DNA from: Zetaproteobacteria bacterium
Lineage (GTDB): Bacteria > Pseudomonadota > Zetaproteobacteria > Mariprofundales > Mariprofundaceae
Assembly: GCA_021545665.1 (NCBI GenBank)
Contig: JAJRTX010000187.1
Location: 1-6,306, forward strand
Length of the DNA: 6,306 nucleotides
Reading direction: 5' to 3'
Both the position numbers and the translations under genes were made by a program. Under the pieces are notes generated by a model. That model worked only from the letters and a program-made list of their open reading frames with translations. It was not told where the DNA came from and made no database searches. Of the stretch, positions 2-6,306 are shown one piece after another (the stretch's first letter is position 1; every line of letters begins with the position of its first letter).

Positions 2-394
2 GCCTGCCGGCGGCTGGCGGACAGCCCCGGCGCCGATGCCGGCGAACGCGACTATATCCGCAGGCAGATAGCCCGGGCGGCCGAGCTGATAAGGGAGATT
101 GAGCAGCGTCGCCTGACGCTGACGTCCGTCGCCCGCGCCATCGCCGCCATCCAGCCGGAGTTCTTCGAAGCGGGGCCGAGCCGCCTGCGGCCCGCCAGCC
201 TCGATGACGTCGCCTCCCTCCTCGACGTGCATGCGTCGACGGTCAGCCGCGCCATCCAGGGCAAGTATCTCAGCACCGCCTTCGGCATCTTCGAATTCAA
301 GTATTTCTTTCCCTCCGGCTGCGCCACCGACGACGGCAGGCAGCTGGCGGCACCCGCCATCAAGGAGCAGCTGGGCAAGCTGGTGGAGGCGGAA
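2..394 (+). pseudogene. rpoN: RpoN (sigma-54) C-terminal fragment, truncated at both ends
   Basis: This frame is open from the left edge and encodes the core-binding to DNA-binding part of sigma-54, the factor that directs RNA polymerase to -24/-12 promoters. Recognisable sigma-54 segments occur in order: YIRRQIARAAELIREIEQRR (56-115), TLTSVARAIAAIQPEFFEAG (near 116-175), the helix-turn-helix segment with HASTVSRAIQGKY (230-268), and FEFKYFFPSG (290-319). The alignment runs on through the AIKEQLGKLVEAE stretch (353-394) and then stops. In intact RpoN this point is followed by a PLSD-type linker and the RpoN box (ARRTVAKYRE), which reads the -24 element; both are absent. The segment is very GC-rich, unlike everything after it. 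The ATG at 227 lies inside the helix-turn-helix and is not a real start. Identification is firm; whether the truncation exists in a genome or only in the assembly is open. Confidence 0.85.
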
Positions 395-397
395 AAA
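374..397. other. Chimeric junction between RpoN and TPR/GT41 sequence
   Basis: Homology and base composition switch together here. Upstream codons are almost all G/C-ending; from base 398 they become A/T-rich (agt tat tta cgt). The stretch encoding GKLVEAE fits both partners: in sigma-54 it aligns with the segment just before the RpoN box linker, and in a TPR protein it fits helix B preceding KSYLRCLEI. A short shared sequence at this point would let an assembler, or recombination, join two unrelated genes in frame. The exact breakpoint cannot be placed within the shared part. Confidence 0.75.
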
Positions 398-2119
398 AGT
401 TATTTACGTTGTCTTGAGATTCAAGCTGACTTTGTTCAGGCACTCAATACTCTCGGTGTTTTGTATCAGCAGCAGCAAAAGCCAAAACAGGCGATTAAAT
501 TATTTAAAGCCGCAATAGGTATCAAATATAAGTATGCAGAGGCGCATAATAATTTAGGCGCAAGCTTCAGCGACGTTGGTGATATAGATCGTGCACTGTT
601 TCACTTTTCTAAAGCAATTGAAATTAACCCGCACTTTATTGAGGCTGGTATTAATGCTGGAATGGCAAAGCAGAACCAGGGTTTTCATGTCCAGGCTAGA
701 GAACTGCTGGACAGAGTGATACAGATTGACCCAGAAAATATGACTGCGCTTTGGGCGCGTTGTGTCTGTGAGCTAGAAACTGTTTATTTCAGTAAGGAGT
801 CCATCGATGTAGCTCGCAGTGCTTATGAATCCAGACTTAAAGATTTATCGACAGATGCCACATCTGAGGCCTCAGGTCAGATTGAGCTAACGATGATGTC
901 AGTGGGCTCTATGCAGCCATTTTTGTTGCCATACCAGGGCAGGAACGATAAGGCGCTACAGATGGTTTACGGTAATTTTGTTAGCAACTCAATTCAACGG
1001 TATGAACCTGAATCATTCCCTGCATCACGCAAACCCGGCCTTCTCAGGGTTGGCATAGTCTCTGCTTTTTTCTATGATCACTCTAACTGGAAAATACCGA
1101 TACAGGGCTGGTTGAAATCACTCACTGAAGAGTGTGAAGTCTCGGCTTATTATACTGGTATGCGTCAGGATCTGGCCACGGCTGAGGCAGAAAATCTTTG
1201 CGCACATTTTCATTCGGGCCTAAGCGCTCAGCAGTTTGCAACTGTGATTATGAATGATGAAATAGATGTATTAATTTATCCTGAGGTTGGCATGCATCCA
1301 GTGACTTGTCAGCTCGCAACCCAGCGACTGGCTAAAATACAGTGTGTGTCCTGGGGGCATCCCGTGACTTCCGGCTTACCCACCATGGATTATTTCCTTA
1401 GTAGTGAATTAATGGAGCCAGAAGCGGCACAATCGCAATATACTGAAAAATTAGTTCGCTTAGCGGGCCTCTCATTTAGCTGGGCGTCCCCTGAGTACGA
1501 TGCAAGCACAATAGTTGATTTTGGATTTTCTGATGATGAAATAATTTGTCTGTGTGTGCAAAATTTGTCGAAGTATCTTCCGCAGCATGATTATCTATTG
1601 GTGGAAATCGCCAGGCAGGTGAGTGAGATAAAGCTGATCTTTATTGAGGGTGCAGAAGGTTCTACTCGATTGCTTAAAAAGCGCTTGTTAGCCTGCTTTG
1701 AGGACGCAGGGCTAAACTTTGAAAAAAAGGTGTTGTTTATGCCGCGCCTCAACCGTGATGATTTTCATGCTCTTAACCGGCGTGCTGATTTTAGTCTGGA
1801 TACAGTCGAATGGTCGGGTTGCAACTCAACCCTTGAAGCGCTTAATTGTGATTTACCTGTGGTGACCTTACCAGGGCAATGGATGCGTGGCCGGCATAGC
1901 TATGCTATTTATCAAAAAATGCAGTATGTGGCCTTGATAGCTCAAGATGAAACACATTATGTTGAGCTGGCTGTGCGTCTGGCAAAGGATGCGGGTTGGC
2001 GAGAGCAGCAGCGGCAGAAGATTTCACAGGCCAGGTTCAGGTTAACCGAGGATGATGAGTCTGGTCGTGCCTTGGTGGAAACGATAACTGATCTGGTTGC
2101 GCAGCAATCGTCATGCTAA
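374..2119 (+). CDS. TPR protein with O-GlcNAc-transferase-like (GT41/SPINDLY) glycosyltransferase domain, 5' end missing
   Basis: Cytoplasmic glycosyltransferase of the OGT/SPINDLY type, expected to transfer a sugar from a nucleotide-sugar donor to protein side chains; donor and target are not known here. TPRs occupy roughly 374-745, seen in segments such as AEAHNNLGASFSDVGDIDRA and the helix ending in EINP. The catalytic domain runs from LRVGIVSAFFYDH (1040-1081, with a His as in the OGT SxDFxxH region), through EIDVLIYPEVGMHP (near 1259-1300) and VSWGHPVTSGLPTMDYF (1346-1396), to NLSKYLPQHD (Lys codon at 1571, where OGT has its essential Lys) and SLDTVEWSGCNSTLEAL (1793-1843), matching OGT's LDTxxxNGxTT loop. 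The frame continues upstream to base 2 through RpoN sequence, so the native start and probably more TPRs are lost; the in-frame ATG at 227 is not the start. The stop overlaps that of the convergent UPF0489 gene. The domain call is firm; substrate unknown. Confidence 0.82.
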   Translation, partial: GKLVEAEKSYLRCLEIQADFVQALNTLGVLYQQQQKPKQAIKLFKAAIGIKYKYAEAHNNLGASFSDVGDIDRALFHFSKAIEINPHFIEAGINAGMAKQNQGFHVQARELLDRVIQIDPENMTALWARCVCELETVYFSKESIDVARSAYESRLKDLSTDATSEASGQIELTMMSVGSMQPFLLPYQGRNDKALQMVYGNFVSNSIQRYEPESFPASRKPGLLRVGIVSAFFYDHSNWKIPIQGWLKSLTEECEVSAYYTGMRQDLATAEAENLCAHFHSGLSAQQFATVIMNDEIDVLIYPEVGMHPVTCQLATQRLAKIQCVSWGHPVTSGLPTMDYFLSSELMEPEAAQSQYTEKLVRLAGLSFSWASPEYDASTIVDFGFSDDEIICLCVQNLSKYLPQHDYLLVEIARQVSEIKLIFIEGAEGSTRLLKKRLLACFEDAGLNFEKKVLFMPRLNRDDFHALNRRADFSLDTVEWSGCNSTLEALNCDLPVVTLPGQWMRGRHSYAIYQKMQYVALIAQDETHYVELAVRLAKDAGWREQQRQKISQARFRLTEDDESGRALVETITDLVAQQSSC

Positions 2120-3576
2120 TCACGCGATTCAATGATCAGACTGGATAACACCTGTTTTCGCTGCTCAATACGTTCCTTCAATGTATTGAGTTTATCTCTT
2201 TCATCCAGCCTTTCTAAACAAAATAATCGTCGTTCCAGAGGTGCCATCCAGGCAGGGGCATAGCCACTGGTTTTCAGATAAAATTCGTCAGCTAGTTTTA
2301 TATTGCCGGCCATGAAAGCCAGGTCACCTATCAGCATCGTTGCACCAGTTCGTGTTTTAATGTCTTTTGTTGCAAGTTCAAGCAGTTGTTTTGCCTTATA
2401 GGGCTCATTACTTGCAAGTACTCCGCGTGCGATAGCCATCAACAGGTCGCAGTGATCAGCTAACTCTCCGCTTTGTTTCTGTAGAAGTTCCCAGGCCTGT
2501 TTTAACATTCCGTGTTCGGCATACAGCAGTCCTATCGCAATTTCAGCGAAACAGCGTTCCTTAGATTCAAATGTGCGTGTATTTAATTGTGTTGCCAGTA
2601 AATTCAATTGGTCACTGTGGAGTTCGCGATGACGGTTTGGAAAGCTCGATGCTTCTCGTGACAGATCGTAATTGTACTGATCATCCAGCTTCATTGCGTG
2701 CTTAATGTTTGATTCTCCTCCTGTTATATCCGCCTGATTCATTGCCTTGCCAAGCAGATAGTGACTGGCGGCGCAGTCAGCATGTGTGGTAATCGCTTGC
2801 TGGCAGAGAGAAATTGCCTTCTCTGTCTGGTTTTTCTCAATTGAAAGGGTAGCCAGATACAGTTGATGAAAATGGTTTGATTCTGATTTCTCGCCGGCAA
2901 TAACAGCGGTAACATAGTCGCCAACAAATCGTAATGAGAGCGGGGTGTGCCCACTACTGACCGCCCGTGACACAGTGGCAATAACAGGAGCTCCAAGTTG
3001 TTTCAGGACTTGTTCAACTACCTGCCCCGGATCCACCCAAAGCCGGTCTTCAGGTACTTTGACGAAGTAATCGATATCAATATCCAGATAATAATGATTA
3101 CTTACATTAAGTTTATGCAGATGATGGAATTCGCAAATGGTTATATCCAGTCCCAGTAACTGACCTCGCAGCACGCCTTCGAATACTTCAACGAAGCCGG
3201 ATAACTCTTCAAAACTGATGCCATCCATCTGCTGTATATATTCCAGCAGAGTAGCGTTATAGGATCGGGGTATATGGGGAGGAACCACCCAGATCAGGCG
3301 GTCTATCAATTTTAACTGACTGGCAGGGTAGAGAAAGTTTTCTATGCCATAGGCGTAGCGGGTGTTCTGAATGAGGTGGTGAGGTGCCTCAAGCGCTTTG
3401 AACTCGTCCAGGCTGTCACAATTTTTAAGTGACTGTAATTGTTCTTCACTAATTTGCTGCAGATCCAGGTGTGCATCCAGATAAACCGCTGTACACGGAC
3501 TGGCTCGGTTTTGCCACCAGATGGGTAAGCTGGCGGAATGTTCTTCAAACAGGTGGATTGGGAATGTGGCTGGCAT
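2116..3576 (-). CDS. UPF0489-family (arginase-like) protein with C-terminal TPR region
   Basis: 486 residues. The N-terminal ~225 residues match UPF0489 (human C5orf22 type): HLFEEHSASLPIWW (8-21), VYLDAHLD (31-38), YYLDIDIDYF (162-171) and SSGHTPLSLRF (207-217). H13, D34/H36/D38 and D165/D167 resemble the manganese ligands of arginases (DAHxD and DxD), so a metal-dependent amidinohydrolase role is plausible. UPF0489 also includes OspR, a peptide arginase that converts arginine to ornithine in RiPP precursors, as I recall the literature. Residues ~235 to 475 form helical TPR-like repeats (e.g. AISLCQQAITTHADCAASHY), possibly for binding a peptide or partner. No signal peptide or membrane segment. 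The ATG at 3576 is the only possible one: the family motif starts at residue 8 and the same frame runs back to the methyltransferase stop; no good ribosome site is visible. Third gene of a likely operon, 60 bases after the methyltransferase. Family firm, reaction inferred. Confidence 0.75.
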   Translation of the reverse strand: MPATFPIHLFEEHSASLPIWWQNRASPCTAVYLDAHLDLQQISEEQLQSLKNCDSLDEFKALEAPHHLIQNTRYAYGIENFLYPASQLKLIDRLIWVVPPHIPRSYNATLLEYIQQMDGISFEELSGFVEVFEGVLRGQLLGLDITICEFHHLHKLNVSNHYYLDIDIDYFVKVPEDRLWVDPGQVVEQVLKQLGAPVIATVSRAVSSGHTPLSLRFVGDYVTAVIAGEKSESNHFHQLYLATLSIEKNQTEKAISLCQQAITTHADCAASHYLLGKAMNQADITGGESNIKHAMKLDDQYNYDLSREASSFPNRHRELHSDQLNLLATQLNTRTFESKERCFAEIAIGLLYAEHGMLKQAWELLQKQSGELADHCDLLMAIARGVLASNEPYKAKQLLELATKDIKTRTGATMLIGDLAFMAGNIKLADEFYLKTSGYAPAWMAPLERRLFCLERLDERDKLNTLKERIEQRKQVLSSLIIESRD

Positions 3577-3636
3577 CAGTTTGTATTTTCGAATGTGATT
3601 TTTGAATGAAGTTTCTGAATGAGTTCTTCGATTGAG

Positions 3637-4524
3637 TTACGCAGGCTTTACCGAGCTGAATCGGCCTATTGTAAAAGCCTGAGCAGTGAGCGCCTGCCCT
3701 AGTTTTAACAAACCCTCCAGTGTCAGTGCAAGCAACGGGTTCTGGCAATGCTGGATTTCCTGCTGCAACGAGATCTGTTGTTCAGGATGCACAGAAAAAC
3801 CTCTACTCAACGGCATTTCTGTCCGCATATCAGTGTATGACACATCAGTAAACCCAGCATTGCGCATTTGCTCTTTGTACGATGCGCCATCACCAAGCAT
3901 CGGTATGGCCCAGCTTCTACATATGGGTTTAATATACTGCCTGATCTGATTGCTGTTCGAGAGATCGCAGACTAACCAGTCTTCTCCTGCCAGCCGGCCA
4001 CCGGGTTTTAATACCCTGAATGCTTCGTTAAAAAACAGCTGTCGATCAGGGAAGTGACACGGCGATTCAAAAAAGAAAAGAACATCAAAGCTATTGTCAT
4101 CATAGGGCAGGGCGGAGGCATGACCGAGGTCGACATTCACCAGCTCATCTAGATTCTGGTTGGTGATCATTCGTGTTGCTATTTCTTTCTGCGCAACTAC
4201 CGGCGTGAGTCCATGAACGGTGCAGCCATAATAGTTTGCCAAGTAGCAAGCCGTCGCAGCTATGCCACAGCCCACATCCAGTACACTGTCTTGCTGGTTA
4301 AGCTTGATTGAGTCAGCAATCGTCCGGATCATGCGAGTTTGGTCCTCTGCCGAGATGTCATTCTTGTCATCCAGGTAGAAACCCGTGTGCCAGTGGATGC
4401 CGATAAAATCGAGATAGAGCGGGATGCATCGTCGATAGTATTCGTCTACATAATCCTGGTGGATAGGCGTGGAACTGCGAATTGCATCAACCAGGGCCTG
4501 ATCACTTAAATTGCTAGTTTTCAT
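3637..4524 (-). CDS. Class I SAM-dependent methyltransferase (UbiE / gamma-tocopherol-MT / RebM-like)
   Basis: 295 residues from the chosen start. The SAM-binding fold is clear: motif I VLDVGCGIAATACYLA at residues 81-96, the post-I strand CTVHGLTPVVAQ at about 101-112, a DNSFDVLFFFESPCHF segment near 143-158, and LKPGG at 172-176. The second strand ends in GLTP rather than in an acidic residue; the same is seen in sterol C-methyltransferases and gamma-tocopherol methyltransferases (GITLS), which also share the N-terminal YYRRCIPLY...HWHTGFY type of segment. These relatives methylate small molecules or sugars at C, N or O, so the target cannot be read from sequence. The ATG at 4524 lies in an 11-base overlap with the upstream gene's TAG, suggesting coupled translation. 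An ATG at 4545 adds seven residues, but its GGAG touches the start codon with no spacer. Middle gene of the - strand operon. Fold certain, substrate unknown. Confidence 0.85.
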   Translation of the reverse strand: MKTSNLSDQALVDAIRSSTPIHQDYVDEYYRRCIPLYLDFIGIHWHTGFYLDDKNDISAEDQTRMIRTIADSIKLNQQDSVLDVGCGIAATACYLANYYGCTVHGLTPVVAQKEIATRMITNQNLDELVNVDLGHASALPYDDNSFDVLFFFESPCHFPDRQLFFNEAFRVLKPGGRLAGEDWLVCDLSNSNQIRQYIKPICRSWAIPMLGDGASYKEQMRNAGFTDVSYTDMRTEMPLSRGFSVHPEQQISLQQEIQHCQNPLLALTLEGLLKLGQALTAQAFTIGRFSSVKPA

Positions 4525-5320
4525 AGTAGATGGTGAGATATTCATCTCCGTTACGACCTATTCCCGCAGAAATGTGACCGAACAATTTACCCGACACTAT
4601 CGACATCAGTTGATCAAACTGCCCCATGTCAAGGTTTAGCAAGGCCGCAGCATCAGTTAGCGGCTTGATGATTTCCTGTACCGTCAATCCAGCAGGGTAG
4701 AGATTCAAATCAAAAGAACGACGCGAGTTACCGGGTTCGCTGACCTCGACATAGATGAATTTCTTTTCGGGTACTTTACGTTGAGCTAAGTTAATAATGT
4801 GATTAATTGCTTGCAGGCATTTTGGCGCAACCGTACCAGGGTATTGAGATTCAATTCGTTGCTGAATATTAACTGTGCTCAATCCCGGAAGACATTGATA
4901 TTCGGTGATCAGGTTTTTCCCCGGCTTATTGAACTTCCATTTAAAACCCCTGTGTAATAGATGGGGCTCACTCAGTGCCGGGTTGTGTTGTAGTTTTTTT
5001 TGTAGCGCATCCCAGTATTCAAGGTACACCTTGAACAATGCCCCTCCTTGAGAGTCGGCCTCGAATCCCAGAAATACAAGATTGGCACCCGCGAGCCCTG
5101 CCTGAAATTGTTCCAATAGCGGTGCTGGCATCTCGAGTTGATGGCAGGCATCTATTAACTGCTGGTGCGTCACATCCGCAGTATTAATCCCCAGTAGATA
5201 ACGATTAGCCAGGATATTGCCCTCAGAAAGCTTGAATGATCGCTCATAACCACAGGGTATAGCGAGATCTTCTAATATCTTAAAGGGCAGGACGGCTGCC
5301 TGAGATACGGGGCTGTTCAT
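4514..5320 (-). CDS. Candidate ABBA-fold peptide prenyltransferase (LynF/TruF/PatF-like)
   Basis: 268 residues. The sequence reads as five strand-strand-helix units, about 24-60, 80-112, 124-160, 187-226 and 248-268, as expected of the ten-stranded ABBA prenyltransferase barrel. From memory of cyanobactin enzymes such as PagF, YERSFKLSEGNILANRYLL (25-43) lines up with LEASCKIESDKLIASRFLL, LLEQF (68-72) with LLQQF, and GALFKVYLEYW (93-103) with the LKMHI strand; the ends also match (YLTIYYE with IRLYYYK). E26 falls on the Glu before the first strand, and K30, R40 and K97 on basic residues suited to diphosphate binding. The predicted reaction is transfer of a C5 prenyl group to a peptide side chain or terminus. 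The ATG at 5320 is preferred because the upstream 45 codons to an ATG at 5455 look unconserved; neither start has a good ribosome site. First gene of the likely operon. Fold moderately sure; peptide substrate inferred. Confidence 0.55.
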   Translation of the reverse strand: MNSPVSQAAVLPFKILEDLAIPCGYERSFKLSEGNILANRYLLGINTADVTHQQLIDACHQLEMPAPLLEQFQAGLAGANLVFLGFEADSQGGALFKVYLEYWDALQKKLQHNPALSEPHLLHRGFKWKFNKPGKNLITEYQCLPGLSTVNIQQRIESQYPGTVAPKCLQAINHIINLAQRKVPEKKFIYVEVSEPGNSRRSFDLNLYPAGLTVQEIIKPLTDAAALLNLDMGQFDQLMSIVSGKLFGHISAGIGRNGDEYLTIYYEN

Positions 5321-5529
5321 CTTTTTATGGTCGGATAAGGTTGAATAGGGTCGAATAGAGTGAGATTTAGCTTCGAAAGTATACGCACCCGGATATGTGG
5401 AAGTACAGGTGTTTTCAGTGGTTAGATTCAGGAGTAGGGGGTAACAAAAACACATACAAAAAGTGCTGGTAATTTGGGGAATAAATAGTCAAAAAAAGAC
5501 ATATTTAAATTTCCCCTGTGCATTATTTT

Positions 5530-5535
5530 ATTATA
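5530..5535 (-). promoter_or_regulatory. Candidate -10 box for the leftward operon
   Basis: The - strand reads TATAAT exactly here, in AT-rich DNA. The -35 region at the usual spacing is poor (ACGATA with a 17-base spacer), so an activator might be needed. Transcription from here would give a leader of roughly 200 bases before the ATG at 5320. A TTGACT on the - strand at 5492-5487 has no matching -10 and is less likely. Confidence 0.3.
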
Positions 5536-5546
5536 TGCTCTCTGTC

Positions 5547-5578
5547 GGCATATATCGTCCGCTGGTCTTGTATATGCC
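5547..5578. repeat. Perfect 8-bp inverted repeat, possible operator
   Basis: GGCATATA at 5547-5554 is the exact reverse complement of TATATGCC at 5571-5578, with 16 bases between. A third, 7-base copy, TATATGC, lies at 5532-5538, partly over the candidate leftward -10 box. The right arm abuts or overlaps the candidate TolC-gene -35. The placement fits a dyad bound by a regulator controlling both directions, but AT-rich 7-8-mers can recur by chance. Confidence 0.4.
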
Positions 5579-5620
5579 ATTTAAAAACAATATATAAATA
5601 ATTTAAGTAATTGAAATCAC

Positions 5621-5626
5621 TGAGGA
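5621..5626 (+). promoter_or_regulatory. Ribosome binding site of the TolC-family gene
   Basis: TGAGGA lies four bases before the ATG at 5631. It supports this start, which is followed directly by a signal peptide. Confidence 0.6.
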
Positions 5627-5630
5627 ATGT

Positions 5631-6306
5631 ATGCATTTATTCAAGGATCGATTTGCAGGCGCAATACTGGTATTGATATTTTTTATGACGTCGATGCCTG
5701 CTAATTCGGCAGATCTACTGGCGGTATATCAAATGGCGCTGGAAAACGATGATGTTTTGAAGGCTGCACGCAATGAAAATCAGGCGGTTCAGCAGGTCGG
5801 ACGACAGAAAAAAGGCTTGTACTATCCCAGCATCGATTTTGGCTACGATTCAATTCAGACCAACCAGGTTATTAACCGCAGTGAAAACGATGTATTTGGC
5901 AGTGGTGAATCCGATTTTCCTACCGATGTATTATCTCTTTCGTTGAATCAGCCGGTATTCCGGTTGGGCTTCTTTCAACAACGAAAAGTGGCCAAAGCGG
6001 AGATTAGTCAGGCGGATTATCTGCTAACGGCTGCTGAGCAGGAGTTAATGTTGCGCAGTGCGGAAAGTTATTTGCTGACACTGGCGGCGCACGATAATGA
6101 ATATGTGACAAGAACAGAAGGTGAAGTACTTCAGCAGCAGCTAAAGCTAACTGAAAAGCGTCTTGAAGTCGGCATGGCAAACCCGGCTGAAGTGTATGAA
6201 TCACGTGCTCGCGTTGAATTTAATCAGGCGGAACGTATTGCTGCTGAGAATGCCGTTGTCGATCAGGAAGAAGGCATGCGCGTGATTACCGGCGTTGCAG
6301 TCAATA
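5631..6306 (+). CDS. TolC-family outer membrane channel protein, N-terminal part (cut by window edge)
   Basis: The frame is open from 5631 to the window edge (225 complete codons, no stop). It encodes a periplasm-spanning outer membrane channel of the TolC type, used by type I secretion systems and tripartite efflux pumps. Residues 1 to about 27 form a signal peptide: a charged start with K5 and R7, hydrophobic core AGAILVLIFFM, and cleavage near PANSA|D. The mature part begins with the family helix LLAVYQMALENDDVLKAARN, followed by LYYPSIDFGYDS, the strand LSLNQPVFRLGFF, and long coiled helices with QRKVAKAEISQADYLLTAAE, SAESYLLTLAAHD, LTEKRLEVGMANPAEVYESR and a final RVITGV. These match the first half of TolC; about 440-480 residues would be expected in total. 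A clear TGAGGA ribosome site precedes it. It is divergent from the peptide-tailoring genes and may export their product; inner membrane partners would lie beyond the right edge. Confidence 0.85.
   Translation, partial: MHLFKDRFAGAILVLIFFMTSMPANSADLLAVYQMALENDDVLKAARNENQAVQQVGRQKKGLYYPSIDFGYDSIQTNQVINRSENDVFGSGESDFPTDVLSLSLNQPVFRLGFFQQRKVAKAEISQADYLLTAAEQELMLRSAESYLLTLAAHDNEYVTRTEGEVLQQQLKLTEKRLEVGMANPAEVYESRARVEFNQAERIAAENAVVDQEEGMRVITGVAVN

Follow-up and report, generated by a model that had tools for sequence, protein, structure and literature searches.

The window analysed here, a 6306-base stretch that is apparently the whole of contig JAJRTX010000187.1 from a Zetaproteobacteria bacterium, carries three same-strand genes coding for an ABBA (alpha-beta-beta-alpha) fold prenyltransferase-like protein, a methyltransferase and a peptide-arginase-like protein. 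A preliminary description, made from the letters of the sequence, had proposed that this trio modifies a ribosomal peptide. Related loci suggest that it decorates a giant secreted protein, and not a small antibiotic-like peptide. The features of the window are listed below (aa, amino acids).

4514-5320, minus strand: prenyltransferase-like protein of 268 aa with a predicted ABBA fold; gene 1 of the trio
3637-4545, minus strand: predicted class I S-adenosylmethionine (SAM) methyltransferase, 302 aa; Methyltransf_11, 5e-20
2116-3576, minus strand: 486-aa protein resembling peptide arginases, its C-terminal half TPR-like; matches to NF052474, UPF0489, OspR (by profile) and TPR
2869-3576, minus strand: arginase-like domain, residues 1-236 of the third gene, from OspR alignment and ligand conservation
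5321-5630, no strand: intergenic stretch separating the divergent prenyltransferase and TolC genes, the sole sizeable free space in the window
5631-6306, plus strand: TolC-like outer membrane efflux protein, PF02321 4e-19, truncated by the window end
ca. 396-2119, plus strand: TPR and GT41 glycosyltransferase lacking its 5' end, PF13844 4e-18 and TPR matches, convergent with the trio
2-395, plus strand: RpoN (sigma-54) DNA-binding-domain fragment, Sigma54_DBD 2e-30, of high G+C and in frame with GT41

The arrangement first described, with two overlapping genes and a third 60 bases on, was confirmed by the open reading frames (ORFs) at 4514-5320, 3637-4545 and 2116-3576. The prenyltransferase and methyltransferase genes overlap by 32 bases, and a gap of 60 bases separates the methyltransferase gene from the arginase-like gene. 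The TolC-like gene diverges from the trio and the GT41 gene converges on it; neither of these flanking genes figured in the preliminary description. The prenyltransferase frame is open as far as an ATG at 5455; most close homologues are about 268 aa long and start near the ATG at 5320. These ORFs are more than chance, because homologues number 116 for the prenyltransferase-like protein, at least 184 for the arginase-like protein (among the best 7998 candidates scored) and 930 for the methyltransferase, a broad family. The three enzyme types originally assigned are upheld.

Two peptide patterns, run against 84,980 species represented by one genome each, yielded a sample of 20 loci with relatives of the prenyltransferase gene (L001-L020). 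Together with G127 and with G570, the latter found through an arginase-domain search of 109 genomes in the order of genome G001, they make up the 22 prenyltransferase-bearing genomes counted below. Locus L001 is syntenic with the window and keeps the trio together in the same order, as the preliminary description had expected of a conserved cassette, with identities of 48% for the prenyltransferase, 53% for the methyltransferase and 46% for the arginase-like protein; the first two genes overlap there too. A giant gene and a TolC gene lie on one side of the L001 trio and a GT41 gene (50% identity over 578 aa) on the other, and the window TolC is 56% identical over 210 aa to that of L001. Beside the GT41 gene of L001, a single frame (L001:13244-15880, minus strand) codes for a glycosyltransferase of WbsX type followed by methyltransferase domains. 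In G570 the prenyltransferase and arginase-like genes adjoin without a methyltransferase gene, and at the other 20 of the 22 loci no window-type methyltransferase or arginase-like gene was found (tblastn, E 1e-5). Co-occurrence was also estimated by a proxy, equal size of the longest host contig across hit lists, in which small sizes may coincide. Among the matches listed (all 116 for the prenyltransferase, the best 120 of 184 for the arginase-like protein and the best 120 of 930 for the methyltransferase), all three enzymes coincided in 7 cases, window and L001 included, prenyltransferase and arginase in 11, prenyltransferase and methyltransferase in 21, and arginase and methyltransferase in 27. 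Given the synteny of L001, the pair in G570, the absence from the other 20 loci and the proxy counts, the trio is genuine but represents a narrow form of a broader prenyltransferase theme.

The steady companion of the prenyltransferase gene is an exoprotein gene. A LEPR/RTX exoprotein gene or LEPR-type export genes stand on the prenyltransferase locus in 19 of the 22 genomes; the other three (L002, L003, G570) lie near contig ends or on short contigs. Model NF012209 identified LEPR-XLL on the locus in 11 of 22 (L001, L006, L008, L010, L012, L015-L018, L020 and G127), and a gene with an N-terminal LExR-xLL motif is present in 13, the additions being the variants LEERTLLS (L004) and LENRVLLS (G007). 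Three loci have solely LEPR-type export genes, namely L005, L009 (partial, 23% identity) and L013, which also holds the end of a protein clustering with the giants, and another three (L011, L014, L019) have RTX giants in which no motif was found, the start of L014, and perhaps of others, not being reached. Frames of at least 2,000 aa occur in 12 of 22 (L001, L007, L010-L012, L014-L019, G127); the frame is cut off in L004, L006, L008 and L013 and measures 284 aa in L020. The syntenic L001 is itself a LEPR-XLL giant locus, its giant frame starting 70 bases past the end of TolC and bearing FEALEPRILLSADG, and the window stops within TolC. In G127 the coordinates put the start of the prenyltransferase ORF 13 bases past the end of a 12,249-aa LEPR frame, and 45 bases separate the giant and prenyltransferase ORFs of L007.

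Anywhere in the genome, LEPR-XLL (NF012209, above cut-off) was present in 14 of the 20 scanned genomes and in G127 and G570, that is, in 16 of 22. Among prenyltransferase genomes not labelled planctomycete the count was 14 of 17, against 29 of 369 in the class of G001 (the 29 include G001 and G127). In the class of G007 (planctomycete), 45 of 120 genomes had LEPR-XLL, and none of 14 control genomes did. Counting the centre genomes in each case, these two classes had the prenyltransferase itself in 2 of 369 and 1 of 120 genomes, and a single genome of the 369 in the class of G001 had the arginase-like domain. With 39 listed LEPR matches in 369 genomes, 11 adjacencies among 22 seem far more than chance would give, a point argued from these counts and not from a computed test.

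The predicted structure of the 4514-5320 product is an ABBA barrel, so that the fold of this superfamily, and the prenyltransferase barrel of the preliminary description, were borne out. The likeness drawn there to LynF, TruF and PatF stands for the fold and falls for the sequence: membership of the LynF family was rejected, since none of 73 family members matched the prenyltransferase models of NCBIfam at E 0.1, a library that presumably contains a LynF model, and the best PDB sequence matches, although two LynF-type enzymes, reached only E 0.62 and 0.64. VIA-align re-examines Foldseek matches only, and families missing from it are not thereby excluded. E26, R40, K97 and Y99 are conserved, with the Glu-Arg spacing of 9vtd; by analogy with FgaPT2 they may be the catalytic Glu and the diphosphate-binding residues. 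D204 and N206 occupy positions that are Arg/Lys in FgaPT2.

Several relatives have unusual architectures. At L016:8371-10707 the prenyltransferase is fused to a Trp_halogenase domain, and a second ABBA family, a radical SAM gene, SapC and a LEPR-XLL giant lie nearby; sequence kinship of the two ABBA-like families was rejected (hhalign probability 2.5%). At L008:8750-10804 a single protein combines a DUF3467 domain with two prenyltransferase-like domains after it. In G570 (L069:389-1198) a TGA lies inside the prenyltransferase frame, and at L020:10001-10729 the match is in three pieces; either may reflect decay, sequencing error or recoding.

To judge from its sequence, the second gene codes for a class I methyltransferase, whose best NCBIfam match is sarcosine/dimethylglycine N-methyltransferase (95.9 bits against a cut-off of 550). 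The third protein is not assigned to PF12640 or NF052474, because its full-length scores lie below the curated cut-offs: NF052474 gave E 8.7e-6 and 25.4 bits against 350, and UPF0489 gave E 8.9e-4 and 20.1 bits against 27. The N-terminal domains of its relatives matched NF052474 in 11 of 11 cases (best E 4e-11), and a profile of 11 sequences over the N-terminal 236 residues found OspR in the PDB (8brp, E 6.7e-5), the next match being at E 1.1. Residues E12, H13, D34, H36, D38, D167 and D169 align with OspR Glu11, His12, Asp39, His41, Asp43, Asp165 and Asp167, so that all six binuclear metal ligands of the ureohydrolase fold and the guanidine-side Glu are present. Among the 37 of 120 listed matches that were aligned, each of these seven residues is found in 37 or 36, the lone gap being a later-starting sequence. 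The metal ligands of OspR and its guanidine-side Glu11 are named in the excerpt of PMC10028609, which also states that OspR gave no urea from free arginine, so that a peptide chain seems required. The C-terminal half resembles TPR repeats, with matches below cut-off and further matches by profile. The third protein very probably works like a peptide arginase.

A search for a short precursor gave no support to the operon first proposed. The 20 loci supplied 363 short ORFs from around the prenyltransferase, and the window supplied its own; none was conserved between loci: at E 0.01 no ORF of 20-130 aa within 6 kb was matched from one locus to another by plain blastp, a weak tool for such small peptides, leaving out ORFs mostly inside larger ones, matches within the near-identical pair L012/L015, and the closest relatives' metagenome contigs. 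In the same limited search no DD(I/V)LF-type precursor was seen, and the intergenic region at 5321-5630 has no short ORF that recurs among the 20 related loci. The neighbouring conserved ORF that the preliminary description suggested looking for was not recovered within these limits. What survives of the proposed modification of a ribosomal peptide is that a polypeptide substrate is plausible and Arg chemistry possible; an operon with a short precursor is left unsupported, the steady partner being the exoprotein gene.

On balance, we think it more likely than not that the trio is an accessory protein-modification cassette for giant exoproteins. It forms one operon-like block, which in L001 is placed between the TolC and GT41 genes. 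Since L001 has a LEPR giant after TolC, where the contig of the window ends, the window's own giant gene would lie just beyond that end, downstream of TolC. The enzymes would modify the exoprotein while it is still in the cytoplasm, by prenylation, perhaps on an Arg or aromatic side chain, methylation and Arg-to-Orn conversion, and the TPR-like tail of the arginase-like protein may offer a substrate-binding surface. GT41 may add sugars to the same protein. Lipid-like and charge-altered groups would tune the anchoring or surface properties of the giant protein. We infer the exoprotein as substrate and, less firmly, Arg as target, the latter from the arginase site, the fold likeness to Arg prenyltransferases (AutF, DciF) and the Arg in the motifs, which the search pattern itself demanded. 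AutF prenylates Arg, according to the excerpt of PMC9609003.

Several observations weigh against such a cassette. There is no giant gene within the window itself, nor at L002 and L003, which are short or cut loci, and, of the 22 genomes, one was found to carry the full trio and two, L001 and G570, the arginase-like gene. The loci are not independent, L012/L015 and L017/L018 being close pairs. In G570 the LEPR gene is on a different contig and a TGA interrupts the prenyltransferase frame; L020 has a LEPR frame of just 284 aa and a prenyltransferase match in three pieces, and both L020 genes may be decayed or misread. Furthermore, 27 of the 29 LEPR genomes in the class of G001 and 44 of the 45 in the class of G007 lack the prenyltransferase, as does one of the two LEPR giants of G127, and LEPR motifs are alike with or without a prenyltransferase nearby. 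Since most LEPR genomes, and one of the two giants in G127, do without it, the cassette is accessory and the LEPR-XLL motif has another general role. The idea that the LEPR Arg is the sole reason for the motif is weakened by the same absences. It is quite unlikely that LEPR-XLL is a leader-like signal for recognition and modification in a RiPP-like system (RiPP, ribosomally synthesized and post-translationally modified peptide) of protein scale with the giant exoprotein as precursor, in which the ABBA prenyltransferase and the arginase-like enzyme would N-prenylate the motif Arg or adjacent residues or convert them to Orn, and a PqqD-like domain, akin to peptide-recognition domains and fused to an M50 protease and an HlyD adaptor, would read the motif during export.

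Other explanations place the enzymes elsewhere. In a classical RiPP pathway the trio would act on a short precursor whose gene lies elsewhere, prenylating and methylating it and turning its Arg into Orn, with export through TolC. The characterised arginases OspR, FlmR and OhkR do act on RiPP precursors (excerpts of PMC12703449 and PMC10028609), the fold is common to cyanobactin prenyltransferases, and AutF prenylates Arg (excerpt of PMC9609003). We nevertheless hold such a pathway unlikely: the limited search found neither a conserved short ORF in the 20 loci and the window nor a DD(I/V)LF precursor, the block has no room for one, and its steady neighbour is an exoprotein gene. The cassette might also make a small molecule, lipid or glycan that is attached to the exoprotein or exported with it, by enzymes that do not act on polypeptides. 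The GT41, WbsX glycosyltransferase and methyltransferase genes in L001 would also fit such a glycan or small-molecule route, the methyltransferase's best curated match acts, by its name, on sarcosine/dimethylglycine, and many ABBA prenyltransferases among the structural matches act on amino acids. The third enzyme, however, resembles OspR, for which a peptide chain seems required (excerpt of PMC10028609), and has a TPR-like tail, and we consider this route somewhat unlikely.

Mere co-location, in which exoprotein islands gather unrelated accessory genes by horizontal transfer, would account for a prenyltransferase that is rare (1 of 368 and 0 of 119 genomes besides the centre genomes), scattered over phyla (judged by record titles) and accompanied by partner enzymes that vary between loci. 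It leaves unexplained why prenyltransferase and exoprotein genes lie side by side repeatedly, in records from gammaproteobacteria, planctomycetes and desulfobacteria and sometimes in operon-like fashion (L007, G127), and why L001 retains the overlap of the trio's first two genes; it seems very unlikely to us.

The export genes recur beyond the prenyltransferase loci. A PqqD-M50-HlyD fusion, whose PqqD and M50 matches are below cut-off, and a GAF-HlyD gene are found close to the LEPR gene at 6 (L043, L055, L056, L058, L059, L060) of the 15 LEPR loci fetched from genomes lacking the prenyltransferase (L043-L051, L055-L060), and also at L067 of G005. Both are present at the prenyltransferase loci L005 (5081-9300) and L016, and one each at L009 and L013. 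They are possibly a dedicated export pair of LEPR-XLL genes. TolC matches were found at L001, L012, L015, L017 and L018. SapC (PF07277) lies near prenyltransferase and giant exoprotein genes at L012, L013, L015, L016, L017 and L018, and also at the LEPR locus L045, which has no prenyltransferase. At the other end of the window, G+C drops from about 0.7 to 0.4 near base 400. Because an RpoN fragment of much higher G+C is fused in frame to GT41, the junction of bases ~1-395 with the TPR-GT41 gene is probably a chimeric contig joint.

The literature searched, with few subscription journals and preprints, yielded no described prenyltransferase-arginase cassette, trio pathway or LEPR-XLL modification, and no account of the role of LEPR-XLL, a term rarely used there. 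The excerpt of PMC10868602 mentions LEPR-XLL in passing, in connection with a giant Vibrio protein some 8000 residues long. The motif marks some very large bacterial proteins, with open frames above 12,000 aa, and a prenyltransferase family without curated annotation beside LEPR-XLL genes across phyla is a concrete handle on it. If the proposed cassette is real, an ABBA enzyme prenylating an intact secreted protein would be, to our knowledge, a new use of the fold, and Orn in a giant exoprotein would extend peptide arginases past small natural products.

Compared with known systems, the window prenyltransferase shares its ABBA barrel and similar size with the cyanobactin enzymes PatF, PagF, KgpF, LimF and DciF, and the spacing of 14 from Glu to Arg in the first strands with 9vtd. 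Peptide substrates are plausible here too, but identity to the cyanobactin enzymes in structure alignments is 11-15%, with no significant sequence match, and, unlike theirs, window-type genes accompany exoprotein genes and no short precursor was found in our search. The bacterial ABBA indole prenyltransferases CymD and 5-DMATS are 8-12% identical to the window protein in structure alignments and use free Trp, as their structure titles indicate. With OspR, FlmR and OhkR the arginase-like protein shares six metal ligands and the guanidine-side Glu, and its DxHxD, EEH and LDIDIDYF motifs are similar to those of the peptide arginases in the excerpt of PMC12703449; it differs in scoring far below the curated cut-offs, in its TPR-like tail and in that no short precursor was found nearby. 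The relatives resemble LEPR-XLL exoprotein loci (NF012209) in that their prenyltransferase genes are accompanied by TolC/HlyD-type export genes and by genes for RTX or DUF4347 proteins. Unlike the prenyltransferase loci, most sampled LEPR-XLL loci do without these modification enzymes.
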